Origin: Gammaproteobacteria bacterium
GTDB taxonomy: Bacteria; Pseudomonadota; Gammaproteobacteria; SZUA-229
Direction of reading: 5' to 3'
Length of the DNA stretch: 38,961 bases
NCBI GenBank assembly: GCA_029881035.1
Contig: JAOUNI010000023.1
Coordinates: forward strand, 1 to 38,961
Positions within the stretch are counted from its first letter, which is position 1. The number at the start of each line of letters is the position of its first letter. Position numbers and translations under genes: made by a program. The notes below the pieces were generated by a model that was given only the letters and a program-made list of their open reading frames with translations, was not told the origin of the DNA and searched no databases. Positions 1 through 38,961 of the stretch are shown here, in pieces.

Positions 1-121
1 AAAAAAGTGGCACTCACTGCGTGTATGAGAAAGTTTATTACCATCTTAAATACGATGATAAAGAACAAAACAGAATGGGCTTTTTAGTTAATTTTAATAG
101 GTGTTGACATCACAGTCGCTT

Positions 122-128
122 GTTAGGC
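122..128 (-). repeat. GCCTAAC heptamer, integron core-site-like
   Basis: On the minus strand this reads GCCTAAC followed by AAGCGACTG, about 16 bases after the stop codon of the unknown gene at 145-600. It fits the RYYYAAC consensus of the 5' end of an integron attC site, and the continuation resembles many attC starts. A matching GTTRRRY end cannot be found between here and the window edge, so a complete attC is not shown. It is the inverted partner of the heptamer at 626-632. Confidence 0.35.
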
Positions 129-144
129 AGTTCTTGAAACACAC

Positions 145-600
145 TTAAAGAGGAGAGCCGTGCCATATAGGGCTGTAGTAGAATGTCCATCGCTCTCCTT
201 TAAATACCCTGTTAATTTTGCCTTCTGGATCATTTAGCGTGAAATGGAACTCCCAGTTTCCAGAAGAAAGACTTTCGTAGCGCTCACCATTTGGCTTAAT
301 AAGATAAACTCTATCCCTAACATAGGGATGTTTAGGAAAGTTGTTTTCAAGGTCAAAAGGATGTGGCTCAGTTTCGATTTTGAGCCTATTTCCATCTGGA
401 GAAATAGCATATGACTCTTCAGGATTAAGATTATAGTTATTCTTTTCCATACTGGAGCCTATTTGTAGGAGGCCATAACCGTCATCATATCCAAAATGAT
501 CATATTCTTCCCCACCTTTAAAATCTCCCTGTTGAAGTGGAATTCGTGCAAAAAGTAGTATTGCCACAAATAGGACTAAAATTTTCCATCGCGTTTTCAT
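145..600 (-). CDS. Unknown membrane-anchored or exported protein, possible gene cassette cargo
   Basis: A 151-residue protein that I do not recognise. Residues 7-19 form a short hydrophobic segment after a basic start (MKTRWK), suggesting a signal peptide or a single N-terminal anchor. The rest is polar and rich in aromatic residues (Tyr, Phe, Trp), with no cysteines and no catalytic motif that I can name. It starts at ATG; no strong Shine-Dalgarno sequence is visible upstream. The gene is alone on its strand and AT-richer than dnaE. Inverted heptamers lie 16 bp beyond its stop and 25 bp before its start, the arrangement expected of an integron gene cassette. That origin is an inference. The open frame with a plausible N-terminal signal supports a real gene, but no homology could be tested. 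Confidence 0.6.
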   Translation of the reverse strand: MKTRWKILVLFVAILLFARIPLQQGDFKGGEEYDHFGYDDGYGLLQIGSSMEKNNYNLNPEESYAISPDGNRLKIETEPHPFDLENNFPKHPYVRDRVYLIKPNGERYESLSSGNWEFHFTLNDPEGKINRVFKGERWTFYYSPIWHGSPL

Positions 601-625
601 AAAATGACTTATCCGTATGTTATGT

Positions 626-632
626 GCCTAAC
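626..632 (+). repeat. GCCTAAC heptamer with adjacent inverted copy
   Basis: GCCTAAC on the plus strand (GTTAGGC on the minus strand), 25 bp before the start of the gene at 145-600. With the 638-643 copy it forms a CCTAAC-TTGCT-GTTAGG hairpin. On the minus strand GTTAGGC matches the GTTRRRY 3' end of an integron attC site, where a cassette begins. The full attC fold was not demonstrated. Confidence 0.35.
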
Positions 633-642
633 TTGCTGTTAG

Positions 643-660
643 GACGCCTGGCCAGGCGTC
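643..660. repeat. 18-bp perfect palindrome GACGCCTGGCCAGGCGTC
   Basis: Two 9-base arms with no loop, directly after the CCTAAC/GTTAGG hairpin. The right half is part of the direct repeat CAGGCGTCATATT found at 653-665 and again at 687-699. A further GGACGCCTGATTT copy of the core lies at 964-976. It could be an operator-like dyad or the stem of a recombination site; no known regulator site was recognised. Confidence 0.7.
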
Positions 661-699
661 ATATTTGTCAGTAATATGTGCCCTTTCAGGCGTCATATT
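653..699. repeat. Direct repeat pair CAGGCGTCATATT
   Basis: Identical 13-base copies at 653-665 and 687-699, start to start 34 bp. The first copy overlaps the 18-bp palindrome. Function unknown. Confidence 0.65.
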
Positions 700-953
700 A
701 GGATATTTAAGGGCAAAAGACGCCTTGCATAAGGAGACGCTAATATCGCGATCAATCGATTTTGACACTATTGATTTATCGAATGGAATAATTACAGATT
801 TCCCCAATTCCGCACCCTCCCCAATAACCCTGTGCTGCTCTAAACGTGAATTAATTTTTTATGAGAATACCACAATTAAATCGCGCTATACCTATTTTTG
901 ACTTTGACTTACCCCCCCTCACATCTTGCCGAGCCATGTGACTTTGGTAGCGC

Positions 954-976
954 AAATCAGGCAGGACGCCTGATTT
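954..976. repeat. Hairpin AAATCAGGC-AGGAC-GCCTGATTT
   Basis: Nine-base perfect inverted arms with a 5-base loop. It lies between the outer inverted pair ACATCTTGCC (921-930) and GGCAAGATGT (1047-1056), so stems appear nested. No T-run follows, so a simple terminator is unlikely. Confidence 0.65.
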
Positions 977-1074
977 AGTTTCGCGAGCGGGATTGCGAGT
1001 CGAAACGGGCGCGTTGGCAAAGTTGCTTGGTTCGGGTACCCGTAGGGCAAGATGTTATGGGCGGCATTTTTCTG

Positions 1075-1132
1075 GTTACTCTTTTGTTGCTGTTGACAAA
1101 AGAGTGACTCGCCCGTGGGTGCGACTACCCAC
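1075..1132. repeat. Two adjacent hairpins of an interspersed-repeat type
   Basis: ACTCTTTTGT (1078-1087) pairs perfectly with ACAAAAGAGT (1096-1105) around an 8-base loop and can extend by three more pairs including one G-T. Immediately after, GTGGGT (1115-1120) pairs with ACCCAC (1127-1132). From memory, closely similar sequence recurs as non-coding repeats in various gammaproteobacterial genomes; this needs a genome self-comparison. Confidence 0.55.
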
Positions 1133-1190
1133 CAACCAATGTCATAAATTACTACGAAGATTTACTAATTACACAAAAGCCCAAACATGG

Positions 1191-1210
1191 ATTCCCGCCT
1201 GCGCGGGAAT
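1191..1210. repeat. dRS3-like dyad ATTCCC-N8-GGGAAT
   Basis: Eight-base arms ATTCCCGC and GCGGGAAT around a 4-base centre, within a TGGATTCCCGCCTGCGCGGG-type context. It fits the consensus of the neisserial dRS3 repeat and similar dyads scattered through many beta- and gammaproteobacteria. It lies 20 bp beyond the stop of the minus-strand gene ending at 1230, so its transcript could fold into a stable 3' hairpin for the dnaE cluster, though no clear U-tract follows. Confidence 0.7.
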
Positions 1211-1229
1211 GACGAATAGAGAGACACAC

Positions 1230-1583
1230 TCACCCCAACCCCACCTGCCAATCCTCAACAAACTCTTCAATCGATTCAATAAAATCCGGGTCGTGCTGTT
1301 TTTTGTTGATGGTGAGATGCACAACAACTTCATTATTACTTTCAGTTGTCACTGTCCATGCAACTGCATTAGGACAACCGGGCAAGGTGAAACGTAAACC
1401 ATCTTTGATTATTTCACGATGGACAATAAACACGCCCCATATGCAATTAATTTCGCCATGGTCGCCGTCATCGTGCATGACTTCGTAGATGGATTGACAG
1501 AACTTTGGCAGGTCGCTGATGGTTATCGACGACTGCAGTTCGGTGGTGGTAATTGGCTTGTTTACTGTGCAATAAAATTCCAT
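1230..1583 (-). CDS. Conserved-looking hypothetical protein downstream of dnaE
   Basis: A 117-residue acidic, soluble protein with no signal peptide or membrane segment. It has two cysteines in the middle (INCIWG and LPGCPN) and an acidic C-terminus. I do not recognise the family. It begins at ATG 12 bp after the dnaE stop, with GGTGTGA upstream, so it is almost certainly translated from the dnaE transcript. The close spacing and the lack of in-frame stops over the whole length support a real gene. Its position last in the rnhB-dnaE cluster says little about its job, because genes at such ends vary between lineages. The dRS3-like dyad lies just downstream. Confidence 0.7.
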   Translation of the reverse strand: MEFYCTVNKPITTTELQSSITISDLPKFCQSIYEVMHDDGDHGEINCIWGVFIVHREIIKDGLRFTLPGCPNAVAWTVTTESNNEVVVHLTINKKQHDPDFIESIEEFVEDWQVGLG

Positions 1584-1595
1584 TTTTCACACCGA

Positions 1596-4500
1596 TCAAT
1601 AAATGACGTTGATCTGCTCTTCGCTAAACAGGTGTCTTAGACGATTCAACAGGTCTTCACTCGGTCTTATCTTCCAGTCATCACCCAGTGCCAGCCGACT
1701 TAGTTCTGCGCCGCTGTTGTACTGAATATAAACCGGGCACTGGCCTTCGCGGTAGGCCTGCAGGACATCACCAAGTTGTCTGGTGACTTCAGCTTCTGAC
1801 CATGAACCGTTGGCTTTGGTCCTGTCGATATTAATTTCCAGACAGCGTGAGAATTTTTCGCGTGCCTGGGTCATGCTAAAAATGGCGCTGGCGACGATTC
1901 GGTACGAGCCGTTAAATTCATCGTAGGAGACCGGGCCTTCGACCACCAGCAGTTTGTCTTTTTCTAACAGGTGATTAAATTTTTCGTAGGTTTCTTCGTA
2001 GATGACGACATCGATACGCGCGGTGCGATCATCCAGAACGGCGGTGACGATTTTGCTGCCGCGCTGGGTTTTTCTTGTGCGCATGTTGAGCATCAAACCG
2101 GCCAGACGATACTCTTTGGTATTTTTTTTGCGATAACCACCGTTACCACCGCCACTGTCTTTGGGTGCGAGGTCGGCGGCTTTGGCCAGCGTGCAGTCGG
2201 TGAACTGACGAATTTCTTTTTCATAACGCTGGATGGGATGTCCGGTTAAGTACAGGCCCAGGGTTTCTTTTTCATACGACAGGCGCAGGTCATCGTCCCA
2301 GTCGGCCACGGTCACCATGTGCACGGCTTCATGCTCATCGGTGGCTTCTACTGAACCAAACATATCGCCCTGCCCGGCCTGTGCATTTTTCTGGCTTTGT
2401 TCGGCCAGTTGCAGCACATTATTCAAACTGGCGATCAGGCTGGATCGTCCTGCGCCAAATTCATCCATGGCACCGGCCTTGATCAGCGCTTCTAGTACAC
2501 GGCGATTAACTTTACGGGTATCGGATCGGCGACAGAAGTCGTAGAGATCGACAAACCGGCCGTTTTCATCACGCTCTTTGATGATGCCTTCGAGCGCGGC
2601 TTCACCGACGCCTTTGACCGCACCCAGTCCATAGAGCACGGTTTTTGAATCCGGCACGCTGAAGTGATACAGCGACTGGTTCACGTTCGGCGGTAATACT
2701 TCGAGCTGCTGTTCGTGACAGTCTTCGATCAGGAAAACCACTTTGTCGGTGTTGTCCATATCGGCCGATAGCACCGCGGCCATAAACTCGGCCGGGTAAT
2801 GCTGTTTCAACCACGCGGTTTGATACGACAATAAAGCGTAAGCGGCCGAATGCGATTTGTTAAAACCGTAACCGGCAAATTTTTCCATCAGGTCAAAAAT
2901 TTTGGTGGCGAGATTGGCATCGACATTACGCGCCACCGCACCTTCCATAAACAAACTACGCTGCTTCTCCATTTCTTCGGGTTTTTTCTTACCCATGGCA
3001 CGACGCAACATGTCGGCACCGCCCAACGTATAGTTGGCCAGCACCTGGGCGATTTGCATTACCTGTTCCTGGTACAGAATAACCCCGTAAGTCGGGAACA
3101 GCACCGGCTCCAGATCGGGGTGAAAATAATCCACTTCGGCGCGACCGTGTTTACGATTGATGAAGTCATCAACCATGCCCGACTGCAACGGCCCCGGACG
3201 GAACAGTGCCACCAGCGCGATGACATCTTCAAACACGTCCGGCTTCAACCGGGTGATCAGGTCTTTCATGCCGCGCGACTCAAGCTGGAACACGGCGGTG
3301 GTATTGGCCGCCTGCAACAGCTTGAAGGTGTCGGCATCATCCAGCGGCAGTTTGTCGATAACCAGATGTTCTTCGTTATTTTTATCCCGTGCTTTATTAA
3401 TGTGCTTCACGGCCCAGTCAATTATGGTGAGCGTGCGCAGACCGAGAAAGTCGAACTTGACCAGGCCGACGGCTTCGACGTCATCTTTGTCGAACTGGGT
3501 AACGATACTCTGGCCGCCTTCTTCACAGTACAGCGGCGTGAAGTCGGTGAGCACGGTCGGCGAGATCACCACGCCACCCGCATGCTTGCCGGCATTACGC
3601 GACAGGCCTTCGAGCGACAGCGCCATGTCGATCAGGTCGTGCACATCGTCTTCGTTTTCGTAAGCGGCTTTCAGGTCTTCCGATTCTTCCAGCGCCTTGG
3701 TCAGGGTCATGCCGATTTCAAAAGGAATGAGCTTGGCAATGCGATCGACAAAACCATAAGGCTGGCCGAGGACGCGGCCAACGTCACGAATCACCGCTTT
3801 CGCCGCCATCGAGCCGTAAGTAATAATCTGCGAAACGCTGCGCCGGCCGTATTTCTGTGCCACATAATCGATGACGCGGTCACGGCCTTCCATGCAGAAG
3901 TCGATATCAAAGTCGGGCAACGAGACACGTTCGGGATTGAGGAAGCGTTCGAACAGCAGATCGAATTCGAGTGGATCGAGATCGGTAATTTTCAGCGCAT
4001 AGGCGACCAGCGAACCGGCGCCGGAACCACGACCCGGACCGACCGGAATGCCGTTATCTTTCGACCACTGAATGAAGTCGGCCACGATCAGGAAGTAACC
4101 CGGGAAGCCCATATCAAGGATCACTTTAATTTCGACTCTGAGGCGCTCTTCGTACTCGGCCTTGCGGCTGAGGTAATCTGCTGCCGCTGGGTCGAGGATC
4201 GACTCCAGTCGCAAGGCCAGCCCCTGTTCCGAGAGGCGGGTGAAATAACTTTCGATGGTATCGCCTGCCGGCACCGGGAATTCGGGCAGCACGCTTTTAC
4301 CCAGCACAGTGACCAGGTTGCAGCGCCTGGCGATCTCAACGGTGTTTTCCAGCGCTTCGGGAATATCTTCAAACAGCGCCTGCATTTCTGCATTGGTGCG
4401 CAGATATTGCTGGTTACTGTAATTTTTCGAGCGGCGCGGGTCATCGAGTGTACGGCCACCGTTGATGCAAACGCGGACTTCGTGGGCATCAAAATCTTCG

Positions 4501-5165
4501 GCCTTCAGGAAGCGCACGTCATTGGTCGCGACCACCGGTGTCTGTGTCTGCAGGGCCAGCTCGACGGCCTCGACAATATAGGCTTCCTCATTTTCGCGGC
4601 CGGTGCGCACCAGTTCCAGATAAAAGCTGTCCGGGAACACCGACTTCCAGTGCGTCAGCCGTTCTAGCGCCAGATCTTTCTGCCCTGATAACAGGGCACG
4701 GCCGACTTCGCCTTCACGACCGCCGGAGAGCGCGATCAGACCCTCGGAGAATTCTTCGACCCAGGCCGATTGCACCATGGGCACGCCGCCGTGCTGGCCT
4801 TCGAGGTAACTTCTGGAAATGAGCTGGCTGAGGTTGAGGTAACCCTCACGATTTTTGCACAGCAGTACCATGCGGTAGGGCAAGCCCTGCTCGTCTTCCT
4901 GACGTACCCACAGGTCAACCCCGATGATCGGCTTGATGCCCGCCGCCAGTGCCGCGCGGGTAAATTTCACCATGGCAAACAGGTTGCTCTGGTCGGTGAG
5001 CGCAGCCGCCGGCATGTGATCCGCGGCGAGCGCCGACATCAGCGGCTTGACCCGCACCATGCTATCAACCAGAGAGTACTCGGTATGCACTCTCAGATGG
5101 ATAAAGCCTGGCGCCCCACCGGTAACTGATTGATCTTGCGATGATTCTGTCAATGCCTGTCTCAC
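1596..5165 (-). CDS. dnaE: DNA polymerase III alpha subunit
   Basis: Catalytic subunit of the replicative DNA polymerase. The 1189-residue length is close to the usual 1160. The N-terminal PHP domain starts with HLRVHTEYSLVDSM. The palm shows PDFDIDF around residue 415, whose two aspartates bind metal, and the third catalytic aspartate lies in VKFDFLGLRTL near residue 572. The fingers segment FNKSHSAAYALLSYQTAWLK and a C-terminal OB-fold also match. Translation appears to start at GTG 5165, giving about 17 residues before the conserved FIHLRVH segment; an in-frame TTG at 5153 is possible and no strong Shine-Dalgarno sequence decides. A glycine-rich linker (SGGGNGGYRKK) precedes the OB-fold. 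No intein or frameshift is seen. It follows rnhB on the same strand, the classic gammaproteobacterial order. Confidence 0.98.
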   Translation of the reverse strand: MRQALTESSQDQSVTGGAPGFIHLRVHTEYSLVDSMVRVKPLMSALAADHMPAAALTDQSNLFAMVKFTRAALAAGIKPIIGVDLWVRQEDEQGLPYRMVLLCKNREGYLNLSQLISRSYLEGQHGGVPMVQSAWVEEFSEGLIALSGGREGEVGRALLSGQKDLALERLTHWKSVFPDSFYLELVRTGRENEEAYIVEAVELALQTQTPVVATNDVRFLKAEDFDAHEVRVCINGGRTLDDPRRSKNYSNQQYLRTNAEMQALFEDIPEALENTVEIARRCNLVTVLGKSVLPEFPVPAGDTIESYFTRLSEQGLALRLESILDPAAADYLSRKAEYEERLRVEIKVILDMGFPGYFLIVADFIQWSKDNGIPVGPGRGSGAGSLVAYALKITDLDPLEFDLLFERFLNPERVSLPDFDIDFCMEGRDRVIDYVAQKYGRRSVSQIITYGSMAAKAVIRDVGRVLGQPYGFVDRIAKLIPFEIGMTLTKALEESEDLKAAYENEDDVHDLIDMALSLEGLSRNAGKHAGGVVISPTVLTDFTPLYCEEGGQSIVTQFDKDDVEAVGLVKFDFLGLRTLTIIDWAVKHINKARDKNNEEHLVIDKLPLDDADTFKLLQAANTTAVFQLESRGMKDLITRLKPDVFEDVIALVALFRPGPLQSGMVDDFINRKHGRAEVDYFHPDLEPVLFPTYGVILYQEQVMQIAQVLANYTLGGADMLRRAMGKKKPEEMEKQRSLFMEGAVARNVDANLATKIFDLMEKFAGYGFNKSHSAAYALLSYQTAWLKQHYPAEFMAAVLSADMDNTDKVVFLIEDCHEQQLEVLPPNVNQSLYHFSVPDSKTVLYGLGAVKGVGEAALEGIIKERDENGRFVDLYDFCRRSDTRKVNRRVLEALIKAGAMDEFGAGRSSLIASLNNVLQLAEQSQKNAQAGQGDMFGSVEATDEHEAVHMVTVADWDDDLRLSYEKETLGLYLTGHPIQRYEKEIRQFTDCTLAKAADLAPKDSGGGNGGYRKKNTKEYRLAGLMLNMRTRKTQRGSKIVTAVLDDRTARIDVVIYEETYEKFNHLLEKDKLLVVEGPVSYDEFNGSYRIVASAIFSMTQAREKFSRCLEINIDRTKANGSWSEAEVTRQLGDVLQAYREGQCPVYIQYNSGAELSRLALGDDWKIRPSEDLLNRLRHLFSEEQINVIY

Positions 5166-36597: not shown

Positions 36598-37938
36598 ATG
36601 TCTAACTGGCCTGACCGCAGTCAAATGAAAGCCTTCGTTATAGAAGAAACAGATGCCTTGCTGGCCTTACTGATATCTGAAGGCTTCTGGATCCAGCTTA
36701 CCGTCATCATCTCCGTGTTTGTGCTGGCACGCTGGTTGCTCACGCCACGATTGCAGGCCGCGCTCACCCGCCTCAGCACCGCCACTGGCCGCGTTGCCAA
36801 TTTCCATCAACTCATCGTCACCCTCAATGAATTCGCCAATACGCTGGTCTGGCTGATATTGCAGTGGACCGCGATTGAGGTATACATCTATCTGGACAAA
36901 CCACACAGCCTGCTCACCCCGGTCGCCAGCCTGCTCAGCGCCTGGTTATTGATACGCATTGCCTCGAAACTGTTACAAAACAAAGCCGCCGCACGTTTTG
37001 TCGCCAGCGTCGCCTGGACACTGGCAATACTAAATATTTTTGACTGGTTAGATCCCGCGCTGGACTTACTCGACAGCATGTCGCTCACCCTCGGTTCGGT
37101 GCGCCTGTCACCGCTGCTGGTGATCAAGGCCGGGCTGTCATTATGGCTCTCCCTGTGGCTGGCCAATGTACTCGCCACCTTTCTCGACCGGCGACTGGAA
37201 GGCTCGGAAAACGTCACCCCGGTGATGCGCGTACTCAGCGTCAAACTGCTGCACATCGGCCTGATCACCGCCGCCTTCCTGATTACCTTTTCCGCAGTCG
37301 GCATCGACCTGACCGCACTGGCGATTTTTGGTGGTGCCCTCGGTGTTGGCCTCGGCTTTGGCCTGCAGAAAATATTCTCCAACCTGATCAGCGGCGTCAT
37401 CCTGCTCATGGACCGCTCCATCAAACCCGGAGATGTCATTTCCGTGGGCAACACCTTCGGCTGGATCAATCACCTGAGTGCACGTTATGTCTCGGTGATC
37501 ACCCGCGACGGCATTGAACACCTCATTCCCAACGAAGTGCTCATCACCGAACGGGTAGAAAACTGGTCATTCAGCGATAATCTGGTGCGTCTCCGGGTTC
37601 CGGTCGGCGTCTCCTATAATGCCGATGTGCGTCTGGCGATGAAACTGTGCGTCGAAGCCGCGCTGGCCACACCACGCATTCTCAAAAACCCCGAGCCGCG
37701 CTGTTTGCTCAAAGGTTTTGGCGACAGCTCGGTCGATCTCGAACTGCGCGTCTGGATCAACGATCCGCCGAATGGCCGCTCCAACGTTTTGAGCGACGTG
37801 CTGCTTGGCGTCTGGGACCGCTTCCATGAACACGGCATAGAAATTCCCTACCCGCAACGAGACCTGCACTTACGCAGCGGCTTTGAAAAACTCGGTGATA
37901 GCGACAACGCGCCGACGAACAAAGGAGAAAACTCATGA
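36598..37938 (+). CDS. MscS-family mechanosensitive ion channel
   Basis: Pressure-gated channel that releases solutes when the cell swells; inner membrane. The 446-residue protein has about five hydrophobic segments in the first 230 residues, then the pore helix and upper vestibule: ALAIFGGALGVGLGFGLQKI, FSNLISGVILLMDRSIKPGD and the beta domain VSVITRDGIEHLIPNEVLI. The C-terminal part RVPVGVSYNADVRLAMKL and GIEIPYPQRDLHLRS is typical. The Gly- and Ala-rich pore helix is well preserved. It is larger than Escherichia coli MscS (286) but smaller than MscK, like many YbdG- or MscM-type homologues. The corA-type gene overlaps its stop by 4 bp. Confidence 0.94.
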   Translation: MSNWPDRSQMKAFVIEETDALLALLISEGFWIQLTVIISVFVLARWLLTPRLQAALTRLSTATGRVANFHQLIVTLNEFANTLVWLILQWTAIEVYIYLDKPHSLLTPVASLLSAWLLIRIASKLLQNKAAARFVASVAWTLAILNIFDWLDPALDLLDSMSLTLGSVRLSPLLVIKAGLSLWLSLWLANVLATFLDRRLEGSENVTPVMRVLSVKLLHIGLITAAFLITFSAVGIDLTALAIFGGALGVGLGFGLQKIFSNLISGVILLMDRSIKPGDVISVGNTFGWINHLSARYVSVITRDGIEHLIPNEVLITERVENWSFSDNLVRLRVPVGVSYNADVRLAMKLCVEAALATPRILKNPEPRCLLKGFGDSSVDLELRVWINDPPNGRSNVLSDVLLGVWDRFHEHGIEIPYPQRDLHLRSGFEKLGDSDNAPTNKGENS

Positions 37939-38894
37939 TGCAGTTTATATTGTGCCACAACAACACCACCCAGGTCGGCGGCCAGGAATTACTGGAACAA
38001 TGGCAGAACAAACCCGACAGCTGGATCTGGCTCGACCTGTACGCCGAACCCGCCGAACAGGAACGTGAATTTCTTGAACAGCATTTCGCGCTGGAGCACG
38101 GCGCCATCATCGAAGCCCAGCGTGACCGCCACCCGCCCAGCTTTGAAATATTTAAAAATTATATTTACCTGCTGCTCAAACCGCTGGACGCCGAATCCGA
38201 CTCGCTCGACTTCGGCACCCTGCAACTGGCCATGTTCGCCAGCGATCGTTTTCTGGTCACGCGTCGCTCAAAAAAATCGCCCTACCTGGCAAAGCTGTGG
38301 TCAACACTGCAGAAAAATGGTTATAAAAATGGAGCACCCATGTCCATCGTCACCGCCATGAGCCGACGCGTCGCGCAACGTTACGGCAATGTGTTACTCG
38401 ACCTGGAACAACGCCTCGACGTCATCGAAGATGAACTGTTTGACAGCCCCACCGACGAGCTGATGAAAGAACTGGTCGGCTACAACACCGGCCTGCGAAA
38501 AATGCACCGCATCCTGGCTTATTATGAAAACGTATTCACCAACGTGCGCGAACAACTGCACAAAACCGGCAGCCATCACCACGATGACTTTCACGACATC
38601 TACGCACTCATCGAACGCTTCAACAGCTTATCGACGCTCTATCAAAACGTCATCACCGACCTCATCGAAGCCTACATCAGCCTCAACGGTCACCGACTCA
38701 ATCAGATCATGAAAGTGCTCACCATCGTCACCGTCATCTTCGTACCGCTGACCTTGTTAGTCGGTATCTACGGCATGAACTTCGAAAACATGCCCGAACT
38801 GAAAAGCCAGCACGGTTACTACATCCTGCTAACAGTCATGTCAGGCATCACCGTAGTCATGCTGTATCTGTTCAGACGAGTGCGCTGGTTGTGA
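37935..38894 (+). CDS. corA: CorA-type magnesium or divalent-metal transporter
   Basis: Pentameric metal channel of the inner membrane. The 319-residue protein has a large cytoplasmic N-terminal domain, a long helix (about 195-265), and two C-terminal membrane segments (about 256-278 and 294-313). The first ends in the signature YGMNFENMPEL, with Gly-Met-Asn at 280-282, which forms the selectivity loop. A basic C-terminus (RRVRW) fits the inside-facing end. The start codon overlaps the channel gene's stop (ATGA), with AGGAG upstream. A ZntB-like zinc transporter is an alternative, since subfamily cannot be separated by eye. The pairing with an osmotic channel suggests co-expression. Confidence 0.92.
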   Translation: MMQFILCHNNTTQVGGQELLEQWQNKPDSWIWLDLYAEPAEQEREFLEQHFALEHGAIIEAQRDRHPPSFEIFKNYIYLLLKPLDAESDSLDFGTLQLAMFASDRFLVTRRSKKSPYLAKLWSTLQKNGYKNGAPMSIVTAMSRRVAQRYGNVLLDLEQRLDVIEDELFDSPTDELMKELVGYNTGLRKMHRILAYYENVFTNVREQLHKTGSHHHDDFHDIYALIERFNSLSTLYQNVITDLIEAYISLNGHRLNQIMKVLTIVTVIFVPLTLLVGIYGMNFENMPELKSQHGYYILLTVMSGITVVMLYLFRRVRWL

Positions 38895-38961
38895 TTATTA
38901 TTTTTTTACAGGCAGATTTTACTCTGACCCATGTTAAAGCTGTAAATCAGGCAGCATTAGT
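38895..38961. other. Trailing intergenic sequence
   Basis: Sixty-seven bases after the CorA-type gene. A run of Ts (38900-38908) follows the stop, but no GC-rich stem precedes it, so a factor-independent terminator is not supported. No gene start was recognised before the window ends. Confidence 0.5.

Follow-up and report, generated by a model that had tools for sequence, protein, structure and literature searches.

The left end of the window, that is, the whole stretch of 38,961 nucleotides that was analysed, very probably represents an integron platform without an integrase gene, in which an attI site with its leader carries a first cassette at the crossover point and the attC site of this cassette was later broken by an insertion sequence (IS). 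That the feature consists of an attI site and a captured cassette and has no intI is close to certain. The window is the entire contig C39 of a draft genome (2.69 Mb, 99 contigs, 98% complete); its left end is the contig end, with no sequence left of position 1 in the assembly.

Predicted attI site and cassette beside dnaE

The features of the locus are as follows.
1-118, minus strand: end of an IS110-family (IS1111-attC type) IS within the cassette attC, assigned from homologous copies; the rest lies beyond the contig end
119-128, minus strand: first 10 nt of attC (GCCTAACAAG) with the R'' heptamer at 122-128, severed from the remainder by the IS
145-600, minus strand: cassette gene (151 aa, ATG start), from the ORF list, family searches and AlphaFold
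626-632, minus strand: R box GTTAGGC at the attI/cassette junction, where homology to the intI-linked attI ends at GTTAG
628-746, plus strand: attI and intI leader without intI, 119 bp ending in AT, all that is left of the start codon, from homology to C82
638-644, minus strand: TCCTAAC in place of the attI L box, from its position and comparison with attI1
643-660, plus strand: perfect 18-nt palindrome GACGCCTGGCCAGGCGTC in the leader, from the sequence
681-725, plus strand: leader hairpin module with arms at 688-694 and 719-725, from pairing over 28 modules
747-1215, plus strand: dispersed intergenic repeat whose first base directly follows the leader, where intI would be expected, 72% identical to C70:844-385
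1230-1583, minus strand: 117-aa ORF adjoining dnaE, with homologues beside dnaE in relatives
1596-5165, minus strand: dnaE, the chromosomal anchor of the locus (PF07733, PF17657, PF02811 and others)

An earlier note, made from the letters of the window, had described gene 145-600 as an unrecognised gene bracketed by GTTAGGC and GCCTAAC, and this description was confirmed. On the gene strand, GTTAGGC (632-626) lies 25 bp 5' of the start, and GCCTAAC (128-122) lies 16 bp 3' of the stop and is followed by AAGCGACTG. attC sites start with RYYYAAC and finish with GTTRRRY. When the motifs GTTRRRY (upstream) and RYYYAAC (downstream) were each allowed within 45 bp of a gene, both were found for only one of the 34 gene-like ORFs hand-picked out of the 81 ORFs in the window, namely 145-600. 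Moreover, GTTAGGC occurs twice on the two strands of the 39-kb window, both times as a flank of this gene. The gene is a short ORF pointing away from attI, as expected of a cassette gene. Its product matched no NCBIfam or Pfam family at E ≤ 1, and the AlphaFold model, an N-terminal helix followed by beta strands, is of low confidence (mean pLDDT 56.9). Among the 54 genomes of the family, which were also those covered by the order-level gene search, the gene is carried by one other (G037, apparently the same as locus L112), with 89% identity over residues 63-151. The earlier note had held that relatives carrying the gene without the heptamers would speak against a cassette; in L112 the homologue is followed by ACCTAAC and an attC-like 5' half (ACCTAACAAGACAAGCAAG) with no IS in between, but no closing GTTRRRY was found at the 3' end of this attC-like stretch. 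In a plasmid collection searched at E ≤ 1e-5, neither gene 145-600 nor the attI stretch 628-746 was found. Judged by its sequence, gene 145-600 is a captured integron gene cassette, a reading that goes beyond the motifs alone because it draws on homology, namely the integrase and attC matches and the attI copy in this genome.

The attI copy was recognised by comparison with contig C82 of the same genome. Positions 628-746 align with C82:3376-3494 over 119 gapless columns at 90.8% identity (E 4.6e-42), and the latter is the stretch from the first cassette to the intI start codon. The match ends at the R box (GTTAG) on the cassette side and at the AT of the ATG on the other. Being homologous to sites directly 5' of full-length intI genes, 628-746 is a predicted attI site, and the upstream heptamer 626-632 is, by the same homology, its R box, with the crossover expected between 632 and 631. 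Thus, of the proposal that both heptamers are cassette ends, the flanks themselves held, but the upstream one is the R box of attI, not part of a neighbouring attC. The suggestion of an array edge or a lone captured cassette beside dnaE was borne out by the attI copy at the upstream heptamer, together with the integrase and attC sites elsewhere in the genome. An attI model built from eight sequences (R1) gave 115 bits on the window, which is one of its eight seeds. The putative L box TCCTAAC and the R box GTTAGGC stand at the crossover, and the direct repeats are two copies of AGGCGTCATATT; the box in the L position of attI1 is CCCTAAA, according to the available part of PMC12901181. Within its own genome, 628-746 matched three places at E < 1e-3 (the window, C72 and C82), and C97 gave a partial match at 0.0045. 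No sigma-70-type promoter was found in window 560-1240, and Rfam returned nothing in window 1-5000 at E ≤ 1, leader module included.

The leader also contains a hairpin module in which the loop, TATTNCGATATTTAAGGG, is nearly constant and the arms vary jointly between species and between modules. CCCTT at 681-685 is able to pair with AAGGG of the loop, likewise in several other leaders. The module is also present in C82, C72 and C97 and in ten relatives (G002, G003, G004, G005, G017, G024, G041, G043, G046 and G052). In a set of 28 distinct modules, pairing between the arms was counted at 154 of 224 positions, against 53-111 when the offset was changed (shuffle p 7e-4, without correction for relatedness).

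On the other side of the leader, no intI lies beside attI and the locus is not a complete integron. The C82 integrase searched against the window by tblastn gave only hits of E ≥ 2.5, and seven IntI proteins searched against the 1500 bp beyond the attI gave a best E of 0.73. The bases after 746 had been considered as the 3' end of an intI on the basis of an FDTI match seen by eye, which was rejected since the stretch is a dispersed repeat copied elsewhere; it starts exactly at 747, is 72% identical to C70:844-385 over 481 bp and has further copies. A dispersed element with the core CCAAYTCCGCACCCTCCCCAATAACCCTGTGCTG, present in 19 other copies in the loci examined, lies at window 807-850. It is found on the former intI side of four solo attI sites (C39, C72, G024:C66 and G024:C98), and in 13 of the 16 copies away from attI the nearest left ORF (at least 90 aa) is transcribed away; it is possibly a promoter or UTR element.

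The 117-aa ORF is 83% identical in G002:C17 and 78% identical in G004:C152, beside dnaE in both, and a broken piece occurs in G001. In G002, dnaE and the 117-aa ORF are accompanied by no cassette within the 1.5 kb read beyond, whereas in G004 (L128, 1000-1467) a different cassette with a recognisable attC directly follows the ORF by dnaE, with no attI in view. Therefore, the place at the side of dnaE is variable in the genus.

The attC of the cassette appears to be broken 10 bases in by an IS1111-attC type element. Window 1-118 is 100% identical to C10:1-113, and bases 119-122 (CTTG) are common to the IS end and its target. Seven relatives have this IS end at eight loci in all, with 79-86% identity over 63-131 bp, and weaker pieces occur elsewhere; the IS end stands after YAAC at seven of these eight loci and in nine of the ten copies listed, the exception being AGC in G046. 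Full-length copies in G024:C131 and G001:C262 (1177 and 1179 bp) encode a 315-aa transposase with PF01548 and PF02371, sit after ...AACAAG of an attC with the other attC part on the far side, and have flanks that rejoin into an attC-like sequence. Some IS1111 elements are known to target attC at one of its ends (Tetu & Holmes 2008 and Post & Hall 2009, as cited in the accessible part of PMC11187229). The window IS is like these in belonging to the IS110 family, with a DEDD transposase, and in lying at one attC end, and no clear difference was seen, with the domains read from the copies of the two relatives and the own genome showing IS ends alone. The earlier note had put the missing attC fold down in part to the window edge; the edge does count, but the fold is unseen also because the IS interrupts attC just after its first heptamer. 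The attC model check that it had proposed gave, with a covariance model (R2), no match in the window, because merely 10 nt of attC remain there, but did find attC sites elsewhere in the genome, including those in arrays on other contigs. A CALIN, or cluster of attC sites lacking an integrase, is defined by at least two attC sites with no intI nearby; in the window one attC, interrupted, is visible.

Contig C50 terminates in the opposite end of an IS of this type, and the array of C39 or that of C10 may extend into it; the window array may thus go on past the IS. At C10:1-1126, a lone cassette-like gene is followed by the identical IS end, next to a large gene that is helicase-like by reading of its translation, and GTTAGGC occurs at C10:793-799, shortly 5' of an in-frame ATG. 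At the right end, window 37850-38961 overlaps the end of C61 (97.4% over 1112 bp), and beyond the overlap C61 carries another cassette array, including a sulfotransferase (PF17784) and a protein that we read as PEP-CTERM-like. Cassette arrays may therefore lie on both sides of the window.

Integron, attI copies and arrays in the genome and the family

Further cassettes and an intI gene, which the earlier note had also suggested looking for, were found on other contigs. One integron integrase above the family cut-off was found in the genome, a full-length protein on C82 (TIGR02249, 430 bits) encoded by a single open frame of 331 aa that starts directly after the leader matching 628-746; six attC sites follow from intI to the contig end. 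Over the whole genome, R2 gave 21 matches at E ≤ 1, nine of which are model seeds. Its attC pairs were set by hand because RNAalifold gave no attC structure on the MAFFT alignment; a previous attC scan had been too insensitive (three places in known arrays vs two in the rest of the window). The genome contains four attI copies, with intI on C82 and without it on C39 (the window), C72 and C97.

The copy at C72:3501-3632 is 97% identical to window 628-746, and the two share an identical leader/repeat junction with about 107 further repeat bases before the first gap. C72 is an island within one contig, where attI and four cassette ORFs, with three complete attC sites and one broken one, stand between chromosomal genes, which from their translations are presumably metZ-/purF-like on one side and kinase-like on the other; no intI was found on C72. 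Inverted repeats of 160 bp flank the island, but its reading as a mobile unit was weakened when the copy of this repeat in the window, used as the query, gave 14 matches in the genome, itself included. The C97 attI is 72-75% like the other copies and heads one cassette. C72 (6.9 kb) and C97 (5.1 kb) may be mis-binned because the contigs are short and the draft has 99 of them, which is less likely for the 39-kb window contig.

Each of the four attI copies has its own first cassette, with those of C82, C72 and the window differing from one another. One C72 attC is 98.8% like a C82 attC over 82 bp. C25 and C82 share 115 bp at 100% identity and then diverge inside the attC R' box, a pattern expected of two cassette orders in one population and suggestive of shuffling. 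This overlap aside, blastn among ten array segments found no gene common to the arrays. Cassettes without a detected attI occur on C61, C35 and C50. On C39, C72 and C97, the terminal attC sites are broken by IS or REP-like sequences. The REP-like sequence GGGGTCAGAACACAGTTTTC, at C72:5729-5751 and on C97 (L053:2522-2547), starts after 15-18 bases of the final attC in these two arrays; right behind it on C97 is a Y1-transposase gene (PF01797), which we take to be REP-associated.

The R1 model was run over the 54 family genomes, own included, and gave 29 matches at E ≤ 0.01, of which 17 were strong at 67 bits or more (8 seeds and 9 new). The other 12, all at or below 41.5 bits, were left out of the count; six of them are further modules of a counted leader or stand beside a known IntI (G002:C2, G017:C97 twice, own C97, G017:C127 and G043:C23), and those of G017:C127 and G043:C23 adjoin IntI genes. 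IntI was looked for in the 1486-1501 bp beyond each strong site. A full-length IntI was found at four sites (own C82, G002:C2, G024:C59 and G024:C10) and a broken one at two (G005:C38 and G017:C97), and no IntI was found at the remaining 11 of 17 (best tblastn E 0.016-0.73), namely own C39, C72 and C97, G003:C187 and C106, G024:C66 and C98, G052:C60, G004:C176, G041:C7 and G046:C125. This share is biased because R1 was built from such copies, and integrases with other kinds of attI are beyond its reach. A wider pattern would rest on these 11 sites, from draft genomes of seven species, and on a model built partly from them (4 of the 11 are R1 seeds).

Nine of the 11 solo sites have an ORF of 40 aa or more with its start 10-45 bp away from attI; the exceptions are the G004 site, which is cut by the contig start, and the G046 site, which has no such ORF. 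The attC model gave clear sites beside C72, G024:C98 and G052:C60 and weak ones beside G024:C66 and G041:C7. An exact break of the leader at the intI start codon had been considered as a common feature of all solo sites, but it holds for C39, C72 and G046:C125 (+2), not for most others.

A homologous site precedes intI in G002, G024 (two loci) and G005 and is therefore the attI and leader of such integrons. In G005:C38 the 3' part of intI is broken, the frame breaking before the tyrosine region, presumably the catalytic one. Compared with the C82 integrase, those beside R1-type sites are between 44% (the G005 fragment) and 79% identical, indicating that leader and integrase types are not strictly coupled. 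Any IntI was found in 29 of the 54 genomes at E ≤ 1e-60, mostly away from R1 sites. In G003, G004, G041 and G052 the compared IntI is 46-53% identical to that of C82 and is not beside an R1 site, a comparison that covered one IntI each of G003 and G041, which have a second. In G046, which has a solo attI, no IntI was found in a draft that is 57% complete. G024 has two full-length intI and two solo attI.

Proposed origin of the integrase-less attI sites

In the proposed course of events, an integron would have been duplicated and intI then lost, leaving the solo attI copies. A single loss may account for both C39 and C72, because their junctions are identical. Cassette 145-600 would have entered by IntI-catalysed attC × attI recombination, with an intI then still adjacent or with the C82 IntI acting in trans, and an IS1111-attC type element would later have interrupted its attC. 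This explanation has an inert and an active form.

In the inert form, whole integrons were duplicated or acquired and lost intI, so that attI and a few cassettes are left as remnants. We give this form slightly less than an even chance. Broken integrases beside attI (G017:C97 and G005:C38) and the attC sites at the array ends of C39, C72 and C97, disrupted by IS or REP-like sequences, are what such decay would leave, and pseudo-integrons arising by intragenomic duplication have been described (PMC2426708, in the part available). Less easily accommodated are an attI and leader at 91% gapless identity while intI is wholly gone, and the three full attC sites kept on C72.

In the active form, the solo attI are working landing sites, and the C82 IntI inserts and removes cassettes in trans at all of them, much as a single Cas1-Cas2 set can act at several CRISPR leaders. 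This form is possible, though we hold it tentatively and would lean against it. The genome has one full-length IntI for four attI copies that each have a different first cassette, the C72 and C82 attC are nearly identical, C82 and C25 bear signs of shuffling, and G024 has the same layout. However, the near-identical attC could predate the intI loss, no gene is common to the arrays apart from the C25/C82 overlap, and G046 has a solo attI yet no IntI in its incomplete draft. Moreover, the IntI proteins of G003, G004, G041 and G052 are divergent and stand off R1 sites, so that the solo sites there may be leftovers, although identity is a weak guide here, the IntI fragment beside the G005 attI itself being merely 44% identical to that of C82. 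The three attI copies without intI and the one complete integron in this genome suggest that a single integrase may serve, or may once have served, several scattered landing sites.

Insertion of the cassette at a secondary genomic site (attG) by dnaE, with a coincidental likeness to attI, is very improbable: this genome does have cassettes for which no attI was detected (C61, C35 and C50), as does G004 near dnaE, but the 119-bp gapless homology to an intI-linked attI ends at the crossover. Least credible of all is an ordinary chromosomal gene with chance heptamers, since, short as the heptamers are by themselves, both motifs flank only 8 of 20,000 segments of 456 bp drawn at random from the window, and the sequence on either side of the gene has homology to parts of an integron or an IS.

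Comparison with known systems and implications

Some class 1 integrons have kept an intact attI1 beside a truncated intI1, the truncations being on mobile elements. The window locus is like these in having kept attI and lost intI; in contrast, several chromosomal copies are found here beside one full-length integrase. With CALINs it shares cassettes without an adjacent intI and an integron elsewhere in the genome, as far as the available descriptions go, but here an attI that can be recognised, leader included, still adjoins the cassettes. CALINs located elsewhere than the intI locus are present in about 50% of Xanthomonas genomes, according to the accessible part of PMC12444791. Pseudo-integrons (PMC2426708, available part) likewise involve several integron copies per genome, some of them inactive; the second copy there is an intI pseudogene, whereas here intI is absent and attI is kept. 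In delta-attI gene cassettes (PMC12901181, portion available), attI sequence also lies away from intI, but the attI piece stands in for attC on a cassette within an array, while the window attI heads its array and has a leader and a chromosomal flank. attG insertions (PMC12901181 and PMC12444791, as far as accessible) place cassettes away from the integron as well, but the target here is an attI copy. In the literature, covered in part, no genome with more than one integrase-less attI was found described.

The attI detection of IntegronFinder is restricted to class 1, according to the available text of PMC9024848, and therefore loci such as this one would be filed as CALINs or missed. The origin of CALINs and their continued uptake of cassettes are open questions in part because, by the same source in that part, attI sites of other classes than class 1 are poorly characterised. 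In the family studied here, homology makes it possible to recognise the attI of one lineage of chromosomal integrons, and of 17 strong copies in 54 genomes, 11 have no integrase beside them. Such homology-based recognition offers a way to separate attI-bearing arrays from attG insertions, and the set of solo attI provides a direct test case for IntI action in trans. If one integrase does serve them all, losing intI would not end an integron but help to distribute its capture sites along the chromosome, and among the loci classed as CALINs there would be functional arrays that possess an attI themselves.
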